Notes under the pieces: model-generated | Told to the model about the DNA's origin: nothing | Seen by the model: the letters and a program-made list of their open reading frames with translations, nothing else | The model's database searches: none | Program-made: the position numbers and the translations under genes | Shown here: positions 20,901 to 38,900 of the stretch, one piece after another | Position numbering within the stretch: position 1 is the first letter of the stretch | Layout: each line of letters opens with the position of its first letter | DNA from: Branchiostoma floridae | Lineage: Eukaryota > Chordata > Leptocardii > Amphioxiformes > Branchiostomatidae | NCBI RefSeq assembly: GCF_000003815.2 | Contig: NC_049986.1 | Span: 19,113,006 to 19,177,005 of the forward strand | Direction of reading: 5' to 3' | Length of the DNA: 64,000 nucleotides

Positions 20901-23900
20901 GTAGCCTGGGTACCATCCAGATAGTAGTTCGCTACGACGTTTATTATATACACAATATACGGTATCTCTGCTATTCTGTCTGGGACCCTTGACATCTCTT
21001 AATTCCCTACACATCAGCGAATTAAGGAATGGTTTCAAGCGGTCGCTCGAATTGGTGTTATAACATCGGAAACACCTTCCGCCTGCTTCGCTTGTTGGAG
21101 GCCTGTTGTCATCGAACGAGTGCTCTTGTACCCATGCATGTGTATGTGTGTGGTTGCATGCGTGCGTGTGTGTGTGCGTGCATGCATGTGTATGAACACC
21201 ATAACTTCATGCCTAGGTGCATTATCTTGAGATTGGATATATTGGTGGGTCTTGTTCTAATTTTGGTAGTAAGTGAAATAAGAACATACAGTACCGACCA
21301 CGTTTATACTCCGGTCTAATCGCGTGCAAATCGTGATCAAAAGTCGGGTAAATCGCGATCAAAAGTCGGGTAAATCGCGATCAAAAGTCGGGTAAATCGC
21401 GATTTAATCGCGGTTAAAAGTCGTGTACACCTCGATTCAATCGCGTCTGGATATGCGTACAACCGCGTTTGATTATGCATGCCAGCTCGTGCATGAGATT
21501 TTGGGCGGAGCTCAACCGCGTTTGGCGGGCCTTTGAACTGCAAAAGACACGCCCATCGCCCGGCCTCTCTTGCGGGGTTAGAACTTTCATCAAGCTCCCC
21601 GACAGCTTGAATTTGAACAGCATTTACAAGTTTAACAAAATCAAAACAGATCACTGTGCACTGTGCTATTGGTCTGGAACTAAAAGGAAATTGCCGGAGT
21701 AAGTATTGATTGAATTTTGACCTGGCAAAATTTCCCGGCAAATGGTAAAAAAGTTCCTCGTACCAGACACTACGGATCGCTAACAACAGCCGGCGGGCCG
21801 TCCAGCCCGTGAACAATGTAAAATTTGTCGCCGTGCGTAAAATTATTCTTTTTAGCAATTTACACTCGTCGCTTCTCAGTGCTTCCTGCCATGGCGCGCC
21901 AGACGGGTGTTGGTTTGTTGACGGTCTGATAAAAAGTGATATCCCTGCGTCGCCGCTAGACGATATTCCCACGGACATGTTTCAAGAAAAATACCGGGCA
22001 AAAACCGCTGTTCCGCGTCAGATTCTATTTTTTAAAACATGTGGGACTCAGTGTTACAGTCTAATAAATATTTTGTAGAAGCACCGCTGTGGGAAAGAAA
22101 GTCCAAGGACTGTATTCACGAAGCATGAAGTTCGCTGTACGGCACATGGCTGTTTGAAACTCTAATCAACATCCGCGTTTGATTGATAGGCGGCGGCCCT
22201 TTGTCGGCGAAGGGTCCCACTAAATACTGCCGACACTACCCTGCGAAAGTAACGCCCGGGTTTTACATACAAACTTACGATGGTTTGTATCTTACGTTGC
22301 TGAACCAAAGAGCTTCAAATTTAGAACAGGAAATTTGGGAACACGACCCGCTCTTATTCCAGAATTATGTCGGAAAGAACTGATTCTATTTGCCGCCCTG
22401 AAATAAAAATTACGCAACTACTAGTAACAGCCTGTTGGTCAACCCCGATCCCCAAAGACGGGACATTCCCCGGGAACTGGCTGTTCCGGCGAGGGATCCC
22501 ACCCCACTGATCACTCGCGGCAAGGCCCACTCGCTACCCTTTTTATATTTTTTTTGGCGCGAACACAGGGCGGCACACGCAAAATTTAGAACAGGAAATT
22601 TAGGAACGCGACCCGTTCTTGCTCTAGACATGTGTCAGAAAGAATTGATTGTATTTTCCGAACTGAAAAAGAAATGACGTAACTACTAGTAAGAGCCTTT
22701 GTTTACATCAACCACGCTCCCCAAATAAGGATTTCGCGGGAAATCTCATACATATTGGCTGTTCCGGGGAGTTATCCCACCCCGCTGATGAACGTGCGAC
22801 AAGGCCTTCTCGCCACTCTGTTTACATTTCCGCCGGGAACGCAATTTGCAAGGGCGGTGCTGGTTGGGAGGGGCTGCAAGACAGCGGTACGGTGGGCCGG
22901 TGCTATAGAACACCTCCCTTGGAGCTGATAACTTCCTGAAACAGCGAAGGCGCGTGCTTGGCGCGTGCCTATGTATTTTTACTGCGATATTTTTCTTTTT
23001 TTCCCCAATTTTTTGGCCGCTACGCTGGATGAAAAAGCAGCGTAGCGGGCTTTTTACAGCGTCGTTTTTCCAGTCCACAGCGTATCGGCCCGCTATGCTG
23101 AAAAGGCCTGAAGTTACAAGTGCAACAAAGAAGTAAAAATTTACCAACGTTTACAAAAACAAAACACTCTAATATTGACAGGGCCGATTCATTCTACAGA
23201 AATGTTTTCGTCTTCTACTGATAAAATAAAGTGAAACCCAACACATTGAGTGAGAACTCTCTAGGTTGCAGCAACCCCATGCCGTCTCTTGTGAATTGAT
23301 TAAAGCTAAATGATTCACTCAACAATAACTGCATGGACACAAAACTAGAAATGAAAACTCATCACTTTATTTCCACACTCTATGATTATTTCAATAATGG
23401 ACTTTAACTTTAGGTATTCTCTAGTATCAGTCCCAGACTGAAGCCTTGAGCAAAATTTAGATACATCGTCTTTGCCACAGATATAGAACATTTCGATTGA
23501 CTCCTTGATTTCTCGAAGGATTGAATAGCACAAATCAATTCACAGATTATCACAGAATGTTTGAAATTTTGAATATGCATATAAGTTTTGGCGCAAAGTT
23601 TATCTATTTCACGGGGGGAGTACATCTCATTCAATCAGCGTTTTTCAAGTTTGCCCAGGGGCAAACCGATACAAATGATATGTAAATGTAAGAAAGTAAG
23701 ATTCTCGAGGAGTCTGGTTATGGGTACCTACTGTTAAACTAAGACTATAATAATACCACCAGCTCAGTCGCAAGTGAAACAAAGACTGAAAGACATATTT
23801 CTACAGACTTTCTATTCTCTAGACTCTAATGGAAAAATCAAGGAAACAAACTAAGAACGTACAGGAAGTTCAAAGACACCTACGAAAGAGAACAGTACCT

Positions 23901-35900: not shown

Positions 35901-38900
35901 GAACCTCCTTGTTCAAACCTTTCCGCCATTCACTGTCACGGACTGCGATGCTACGCCACTACGTTCCCTTTGAATACAGTCCCAGATAAATTTCCAGAAA
36001 TACAGAAGGCACCGCAATCGACGAAGGGCTGTTGAAGTGACATGGGCCGTATGGAATGGAGTCGCAACTTATCGAAAAATGTTCCTCCAGTAGATCACTA
36101 GATGAACCGCGACATTAATCCGCGTAAATATCAGCAAGAAAATTCTCCAGAAAAGACAGAAAACTCCAACTTCTGACTTGTGGGAAAAAACGCGAGGCCA
36201 AGCTTTGACCAAGCCAAATATTACCCCCTCAGCGCTGATCAAAGGGCGCCGCCAGGGCGCCGCTGTCCATCAACTACATTAGCAACCGCCTTAGCCATAG
36301 CAACCGTCTCCCAGATTGTCGCTGGCCGGGCCGCGAGCTGGGTTGGTTGGACACGAACATGAGAACGTTTTTTTTGTTTACACGTGTAAACAAAAACCTT
36401 GCTGAACCTGAATGCTGTCAAATTTACCCCTGATGTATGGATTCTGTTCTTAAAATATGCCCGGTCCCAGAAGATACAGTGTCGGGTTAGTTCAGTGCTT
36501 TGGGAAAATGCGCCGGTCTCGCAAACCGGAAGTTCAAACTCAGACTGTAACTTTGGAAAATTTTCCCACTAAGACTAACGTTACTTGAATAAAAATCAGG
36601 CCAAAGTTGCTGTGTATCGAGAAATCAGTCATCGAACCTTTTAATTCTTACCCAGCTATTCAAAGATGAACTTACAAAATGCGTCATGCCCCGGTGTTTT
36701 TCCCGCGAAATACATCGTAAATGCTAACATTGCGGGCCTCGGTGCACGGTGGGTTTACGTGTAAACAGACGTATAAAATCTCCTTTGTGTAAAGTATTAG
36801 ACATAAGTAGTAACTGCTAACTAGACTAACATGAATGCAAGCGATAATCACCTTCTAGAATACAATTTTGCAAAGGCTACTTTCATAAAGTTATCATGTA
36901 AAGACCTAACAAAATTACATAAGTTCGAGTCCCGGTATTTTCCTGTGTAATACGGCGTTAAAGTCAACAGAAAACAGACCCGTGTTTGGCTGCTCCAAGG
37001 ACGCACGGCGGGATTCACATCGCTCAGTAATATGCAAATATGTTGGCGGGAGTTCACTTTAATAAAATGGGAAAACAGTGCTTTTAACTTAGAAAAATAT
37101 GTTTCTCCAGAACACAAACGACTTATTTTGCATTTTAAAACACTGAAATATATTATTTAGATACGTAAAGTTGTAACCCAACCATGTTAATTATCAAAAC
37201 AGTTGCCAAGTTGTGACAAAATAAAAAAAGTCTCCCCTAATGCATGTAGTGGTACAGTACAACTTAGCGGCGCCCCCTCCTTTCTTGAGGCTTCAAAGAC
37301 AGGGACAGGGCAGGCCTGGCTATTACATTTAGCATCCTTACCCATGTATATCAGAAGGTGTGGACGATATATCCCGAAAGGTCCCTCAATAAATTGCATT
37401 TTTTACGGAGTTAAATTGAATTAGAGCAAGTAAATTTTGGATAAAGGACAATTCTATTTTCTTTTCAACAAAGCCATGCTTGTGAAGGCTTAGAACTCAA
37501 AGATTTTAATTGTTCCAAGAGTGGCTCCGTTTACACAACAAACCAGAAATAGAGGGGTGGCTACAGTTTCTGATATGGAACAGCCGGCAAGTGGCACGTG
37601 CTAGCCTGCTGATTTGATCGTGGGGATGGGGCGGGGCCTTGGTTTTCGCGCCGGCTGACGCGGGCGAGTTCAGTCAACCCGTGGGCGTAAAGCTTTGTTT
37701 TCTTCAGGCAGGTTCTGCAACCATTCCATCGGCGCTGGCATAAATTGTTGCTCGTTTTTTTGCCGGGCACCGAAACAAAACTCCCGCTGAATTTAAATAA
37801 AAAGAACACTGGAACATTTCATAAGGACCTAGCAACGCAATCCTGTTAGCCTTTAGGAAACCAAGGAATGTTCCTGCCACAACGTAACACAAGCAGGAAG
37901 CTTGCCGTCTGGTGATATCTCGCAGCGGGGACTCCAACCCAGACGTCAATCAATTTGACCAGATTTGCGTAAACGCGTCTGGCGGTAGCGGAAGATTTTT
38001 AATTAGGTGACCACACGCGATTACAGCTAATTAGTGCACGCGATTTGCACGAGATTAAATCGCGTTCTACCCGACTTTTAACCGCGATGCAATCGTGATC
38101 AAATCGAGAGTTGCACGACTTTTAATCGCGATGTAATCGCGATTAAAACGTGTGTAAAACGCGGTGGACCGGACCATAAACGTGGTCGGTACTGTACATG
38201 TAGTATAAAGTGTAATCATGTTTTGACTTGTGTGAAGCAGCAGGAGCCAGACTGTCCCAATTTTTCATGTAGAGGGTGGGTGGGTGTGCTGATTTGTGAT
38301 GGGGGATTATTTCTTCATAGTCCTCCCCAGAGAATGGAATAACGGAGGCCCTCCACTATACTCCTCGCCCAGCTCCACTATACTACTTCTGAAATTTTGT
38401 GTGTTTCTTCCCTATTTTCTTGGTTAGCTTTGGTAAAATTAATGAAAATTCACAGATTTCTGTGCCAAGCGGCATCACTTTCCCAGTCAGCATTGTAGTA
38501 TTTGACACCGTCTGTCATTACAAAATGAACCCATTTTCATGAAAGCACAGCGCGTTGGTTTGGGTTATTTTTGCCAGCCCCTCCACTATACTAAAAAATT
38601 ATGGGGAGAACCCTGTTCTTCATCTATGAAGGGGACAAACCAAGGTTGAATGTTTGGCTGGGGGCTGGCGTCTGACAAAAATTGGTCACTAGACTATGTG
38701 ATATAGTTCTAATGTAACTTCTTGTACAGTCATTGACCAAAGATAGTAGATGTTATCTGAAATACAGTAGAACTTCTAGAAGTGAGTTAATTGCACAGCG
38801 GATTAACGCACACTTCTGTTAGCTGCAAGGAATTTCCGGATCCAAATCCCAAACCGGTGTGGTCCAGCAAGATAACTTCGCATTATTGCACCAGCCGGAT

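Follow-up and report, generated by a model that had tools for sequence, protein, structure and literature searches.

A 64,000-nucleotide stretch of the Branchiostoma floridae genome (C8:19113006-19177005 in a 513.4-Mb, 431-contig assembly; hereafter the window) contains an element, given the working name E (window 21289-38194), that encloses a DD34E transposase gene and a gene for a BEN-domain protein. Our favoured explanation, to which we assign a probability of roughly one half, is that E is a cut-and-paste insertion of the Tc1 family that carries the BEN gene as an accessory and was later enlarged by nested repeats. The narrower proposition that E is a single Tc1-type insertion appears very probable. 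The odds that it jumped together with the BEN gene are about even, its 16.9 kb probably overstate the unit that jumped, and its movement as a 16.9-kb unit is unproven. Published work is cited below from excerpts of the respective papers.

Ends of E and their genome-wide family

Both borders of E read TACAGTACCGACCACGTTTAT, 21 exact bp when the TA is counted: CAGTACCGACCACGTTTAT (19 bp) begins at 21289, its exact inverse ends at 38194, and a TA lies outside each. Compared end to end, these 21 bp are followed by two mismatches and seven matches (28/30), and nowhere else in the window are the initial 21 bp of the left end matched with fewer than six mismatches. The exact inverted ends, CAGT start and external TA described by an earlier note on this DNA were thereby confirmed, as were the mirrored subterminal arrays. 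Thirteen of the 14 AATCGCG[A/T/G] sites of the window fall within the two 200-bp ends of E (7 left, 6 right), against means of 0.02 and 0.01 in base-shuffled ends, and the left end contains three instances of AAAAGTCGGGTA, the right end a single inverted one. On one side of E lies an exon at 14796 (MGQSQGK...NVFEEH), which by its motifs we take to be the first exon of ABL, and on the other, near 58716, one that on the same grounds is presumably its SH3 exon; for this reason we place it, as did the earlier note, in ABL intron 1. The SH3 exon sequence is itself present twice (58716 and 58865, some 150 bp apart), as either a tandem exon or an assembly duplication.

A genome-wide search with the end pattern TACAGTACCGNNNACGTTTAT, allowing at most one mismatch, returned 57 places, against one for the reversed pattern used as a control. 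Forty-eight of the 57 form 24 inward-facing, TA-flanked pairs and nine are unpaired. E spans 16,906 bp and the other 23 pairs 550-6,554 bp, 20 of them falling at 4.6-5.4 kb. At two mismatches the search gave 82 places against 56 in the control; the 25 added places are no more than chance, and this level contributes a 25th pair (C11:12673614-12678465) whose outer TA reads N. The same picture emerges from queries with the terminal sequences of E: there were 29 matches for the 200-bp left end, and 42 for the 198-bp right end, for which 40 of 49 candidates were scored. The earlier note had proposed such a search, naming as support other TA-flanked loci with both ends 5-25 kb apart; 23 other pairs were found, all of 0.55-6.55 kb, leaving E alone as a giant.

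Ten of the 23 other pairs were read whole, and all ten have TA on both sides. In each of them the left end of E matches best the left end of the copy (75-77% over 128-141 bp) and its right end the right end (79-83% over 112-123 bp). Within the terminal inverted repeat (TIR), moreover, both ends of E carry CGACCA, an ACC variant that the remaining places among the 57 lack. This polarity and the private variant speak most strongly for the two ends being parts of one unit, as the earlier note had supposed. Its refuting case, in which each end would come from a short element of its own, did not hold, since 23 other pairs in the genome have both ends and the left-right polarity of E is that of all ten copies read.

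The 23 pairs constitute a young family, mostly of 4.6-5.4 kb, whose TA-flanked ends are related to those of E. The ten copies read measure 1.9-5.4 kb and are mostly 96-99.6% identical to one another (the exceptions are L032, with about 89-94%, and the initial 0.6 kb of L036, with about 90%), similarity that indicates recent movement. They share with E their ends only (blastn E-value <= 1e-5), retain the AATCGCG arrays and look non-autonomous. Retention of the arrays is compatible with their serving in mobilisation, irrespective of the protein that binds them, and the only transposase found between such ends is that of E. That the 5-kb copies are deleted forms of E is unsupported, because in the ten read the ends are all that is common and neither gene is matched. 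A right end at C5:1349358, considered as a closer relative of that of E, proved to belong to a diverged relative of the 5-kb copies (86-89% identity across 600-700 bp).

The two genes between the ends

The earlier note's reading of a DD34E transposase and a spliced BEN gene inside E was borne out by open gene models and by the Pfam DDE_3 and BEN-domain matches (Table 1). The transposase model has no internal stop and places 34 residues between D245 and E280. DDE_3 scores above its cut-off, HTH_32 (4e-6) and HTH_Tnp_Tc3_2 (2e-5) match the N-terminus below theirs, and Sleeping Beauty is the only PDB sequence at E-value <= 0.1. Relatives numbered 1226 among 2062 candidate proteins; 120 are listed at 42-55% identity, the best-scoring being from B. 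lanceolatum (49%). In the genome the only close copy found is E's own. The next relatives, at C16:1444952 and C3:10277237, are 48-52% identical along most of the protein's length, C3 having an additional N-terminal piece at 38%; after them come pieces at 30-63%, most with stops, at C6:14983378 and C17:15791133. From the stop codon region outward, C16:1446000-1448700 and C3:10274600-10277300 are 99.5% identical over all 2,695 bp compared, and both contain the repeat found in E at 27574-28508, at 90%. They are perhaps a second long Tc1-type element, or else a segmental duplication. The ends of this stretch were not found: there is no nearby TIR-pattern place at up to two mismatches on either contig, in a search at chance level by which weaker ends cannot be judged.

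Exons 1-4 of the BEN gene are open, join in phase and use GT donors and AG acceptors. The last intron crosses both assembly gaps of E and leads to four in-phase acceptors, 42 bp apart, one in each of four units of a proline-rich 42-bp minisatellite (33963-34179); three tandem 150-bp units (29330-29779) lie just upstream of the gene. The BEN domain is matched in Pfam at E-value 3.3e-9, and matches in PDB are weak (BEND3 and BANP, 0.03-0.11). In searches that reach only proteins sharing short words, with the proline-rich array omitted from the query, the protein matched nothing at E-value <= 1e-3 among 8000 word-sharing candidates, nor did its N-terminal half (residues 1-230) among 676. Thirteen genomic matches were obtained, five within E and eight at four places on C9 and C11; the latter (56-72%) are all to the C-terminal half, and four of the eight have stops. 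At the DNA level, 29904-32478 has outside matches only at 30878-31210 among the matches listed (40 of 1012 candidates scored). On this showing the BEN region is single-copy apart from that one repeat, and hence no mobile family is seen that could have brought it.

CGCG DNA is bound by the BEN domain of BANP, which favours TCXCG, AAATCTCG being the best sequence; at X, T ranks far higher than A or C (PMC10206803). Six of the seven AAATCGCG sites of the window lie in the ends of E. By analogy with the BANP preference the E protein may bind the arrays, a link that we offer as a lead only.

Table 1. Features of E and related loci (window positions unless a contig is given)
Feature	Position	Strand	Basis or remarks
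Element E with flanking TA on each side	21287..38196	.	inverted ends, TA both sides; sole CGACCA pair among 24
Left TIR	21289..21316	+	19 exact bp from CAGT; 26/28 bp against right end
Right TIR	38167..38194	-	inverse of left end
Left subterminal array, AATCGCG-type sites	21312..21446	+	motif positions
Right subterminal array, mirrored	38015..38161	-	motif positions
DD34E transposase, 342 aa, four exons (27079-26348, 25595-25531, 25221-25185, 24834-24640)	24640..27079	-	open spliced model; DDE_3; Sleeping Beauty PDB match
BEN-domain gene, exons 29904-30120, 30601-30848, 31649-31796, 31995-32071, last from 33983/34025/34067/34109 to 35110	29904..35110	+	open in phase; BEN domain
Relatives of BEN C-terminal half	C9:334691, C9:1296917, C9:1706077, C11:1321895		three of four places on C9
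Repeat found elsewhere, probably nested	21937..23110	.	17 other loci at 84-90% among 40 scored of 1347 candidates
Repeat found elsewhere, probably nested tail of a long interspersed nuclear element (LINE)	23694..24431	.	at least 22 other loci at 90-97%
Repeat found elsewhere, probably nested	27574..28715	.	about 20 other loci at 80-90% among 40 scored of 1061 candidates
Short repeat found elsewhere, like a miniature inverted-repeat transposable element (MITE)	28712..28835	.	at least 16 other loci at 94-96%
MITE-like repeat in BEN intron, inverted ends 30900-30923/31161-31184	30878..31210	.	inverted arms; matches listed outside E
Second copy of 28101-29355, starts at gap, contains gap	32710..33965	.	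98-99% identity; possible assembly artefact
Repeat found elsewhere, probably LINE fragment	35125..35585	.	at least about 30 other loci
Repeat, nested or old shared module	36833..37772	.	at least 9 other loci, main pieces 72-79%

Size of E and competing explanations

The earlier note had described E as ten times the normal size. Repeats found elsewhere make up about a third of its length, so that this excess is probably in part later growth. The repeats would have entered after the insertion of E. One open reading frame among them (23830-24111) looks, from its translation, like the end of a reverse-transcriptase protein. Of the earlier note's giant cargo-carrying Tc1 element, one TA-flanked unit with both genes inside is supported; no second giant copy was found, and the BEN gene would have been its passenger at the time of the jump.

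Several observations weigh against our favoured explanation. No giant pair besides E exists among the 24 genome-wide. Neither gene, which the earlier note thought full-length copies might share, has a protein match in the ten copies read (tblastn E-value <= 1e-3), and the ends of these copies differ by 17-25% from those of E, so that an unseen sister element may be the true source or mover of the 5-kb copies. None of the BEN relatives on C9 and C11 lies near a transposase relative or a TIR place. The ends of E have X = G in TCXCG, unlike the BANP preference; the single AAATCTCG site of the window is in the interior of E rather than in its ends, and plain CGCG occurs often (71 sites in the window, 14 of them in the ends). 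The empty site invoked by the earlier note was not found in this assembly: the joined flanks of E hit nothing but this locus, with one match per flank, which makes the flanks single-copy and leaves the assembly with no empty allele. Repeats account for at least 5,372 of 16,906 bases without 30878-31210 and for about 5.7 kb (34%) with it, a sum that includes part of the second copy (32710-33506) and is a lower bound, as each search scored 40 candidates and 24640-27091 and 33966-35110 were covered by protein searches alone. Two assembly gaps (32479-32709 and 33507-33686) further blur the length of E, as would the 1.26-kb duplication (28101-29355 / 32710-33965), possibly a haplotype-merge artefact; the gap within its second copy is as long as the piece missing there.

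An ordinary autonomous Tc1 element, consisting of ends and transposase, might instead have inserted into ABL and acquired the BEN region and the repeats afterwards, in which case the 16.9-kb unit never moved. Seven or more stretches of E that recur elsewhere (about 5.7 kb together), the ten copies without BEN and the lack of linkage between BEN and transposase relatives speak for this account; the open BEN gene model and a BEN region that is single-copy except for one repeat, among the matches listed, speak against it, and we regard it as possible, if somewhat doubtful. That E consists of two separate or broken elements of one family lying 17 kb apart, with old ABL intron or a host gene between them, is improbable: the nine unpaired places among 57 and the single-copy BEN region (among the matches listed) would suit such an arrangement, whereas the CGACCA variant common to both ends and absent from the rest of the 57 places, a left-right polarity equal to that of all ten copies read and a Tc1-type transposase between the ends argue for one unit. 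Two solo ends were likewise rejected as unlikely given the pairing, polarity and private TIR variant. Wrong joining of the right end or of the last BEN exon across the gaps is suggested by the two gaps, by a 95-100% duplicate of 28101-29355 that starts exactly after a gap and by the merging of two divergent haplotypes with HaploMerger2 in this 19-chromosome assembly (PMC7269912), and is very improbable given that the left end, the transposase and BEN exons 1-4 occupy gap-free sequence (21289-32478) and that the TIR variant is common to both ends.

Proposed mechanism and comparison with known systems

Tc1 enzymes bind subterminal sites through their helix-turn-helix domains; cutting at the TIR and insertion at TA are the work of the DDE domain. 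Under the explanation that we favour, the transposase of E would have bound the ends, excised the element and pasted it by cut-and-paste at a TA in ABL intron 1, and the same or a sister transposase may move the non-autonomous copies of about 5 kb in trans, since these have kept a similar TIR and AATCGCG arrays. The BEN gene would be an accessory between the ends, its product, we guess, binding the AATCGCG arrays and either helping the transposase or keeping the chromatin of the element open, and nested repeats would have enlarged E after insertion. We infer all four components, namely the jump itself, the BEN gene riding along, its binding to the ends and the later arrival of the repeats. A bolder version, which we consider speculative and rather unlikely, makes E the autonomous head of a lancelet Tc1 lineage, in which BEN, bound to the arrays, would regulate how E and its satellites of roughly 5 kb transpose or are silenced, a two-protein animal Tc1 system. 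If true, a natural Tc1 element of an animal that has CGCG-type arrays at both ends and encodes a DNA-binding protein in a second, spliced gene would make cargo capture and two-protein control directly testable in this superfamily.

Tc1-type elements are usually minimal, with one gene in 1-2 kb, and a TIR beginning with CAGT is typical of them. E resembles Tc1 and Sleeping Beauty-type transposons in its DD34E transposase (D/D/E with 34-residue spacing), CAGT TIR, subterminal repeats and TA target, the TA duplication and TIRs being present in E and in all ten copies. It differs from them in its spliced transposase, its second gene and its length in the assembly; the compact single-gene size usual for the branch is not seen in 16,906 bp with two genes and at least a third repeats. 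Repeated copies that carry one cargo between the same ends, the hallmark of a cargo transposon, were not found, the 10 of 23 other pairs read having no BEN match. No description of a Tc1 element with a BEN gene was found in the literature searched; "BEN domain" and "Tc1" co-occur in PMC5704228 and PMC5322367.

Among giant elements, Teratorn of medaka is, like E, bounded by TIRs and equipped with a transposase in an animal genome; unlike E, it has a piggyBac-like transposase, herpesvirus genes and a length of 41-182 kb (PMC6431247). According to the same review, the efficiency of DNA transposition falls significantly beyond 6 kb of cargo, and the words mariner and Tc1 are absent from its text. 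Turmoil-1 of C. elegans is likewise an animal DNA transposon with acquired protein-coding sequence, and differs from E in belonging to the Harbinger superfamily, in its size (5,024 bp) and in holding the captured sequences within its long inverted repeats (PMC2572040). The Tec and TBE elements are Tc1/mariner relatives with three open reading frames; unlike E, they are ciliate germline elements with different accessory genes and with TIRs of their own, which in Tec measure about 700 bp, BEN not being mentioned in the excerpted text, and, like E, they combine a DD34E transposase with extra genes (PMC7325037).

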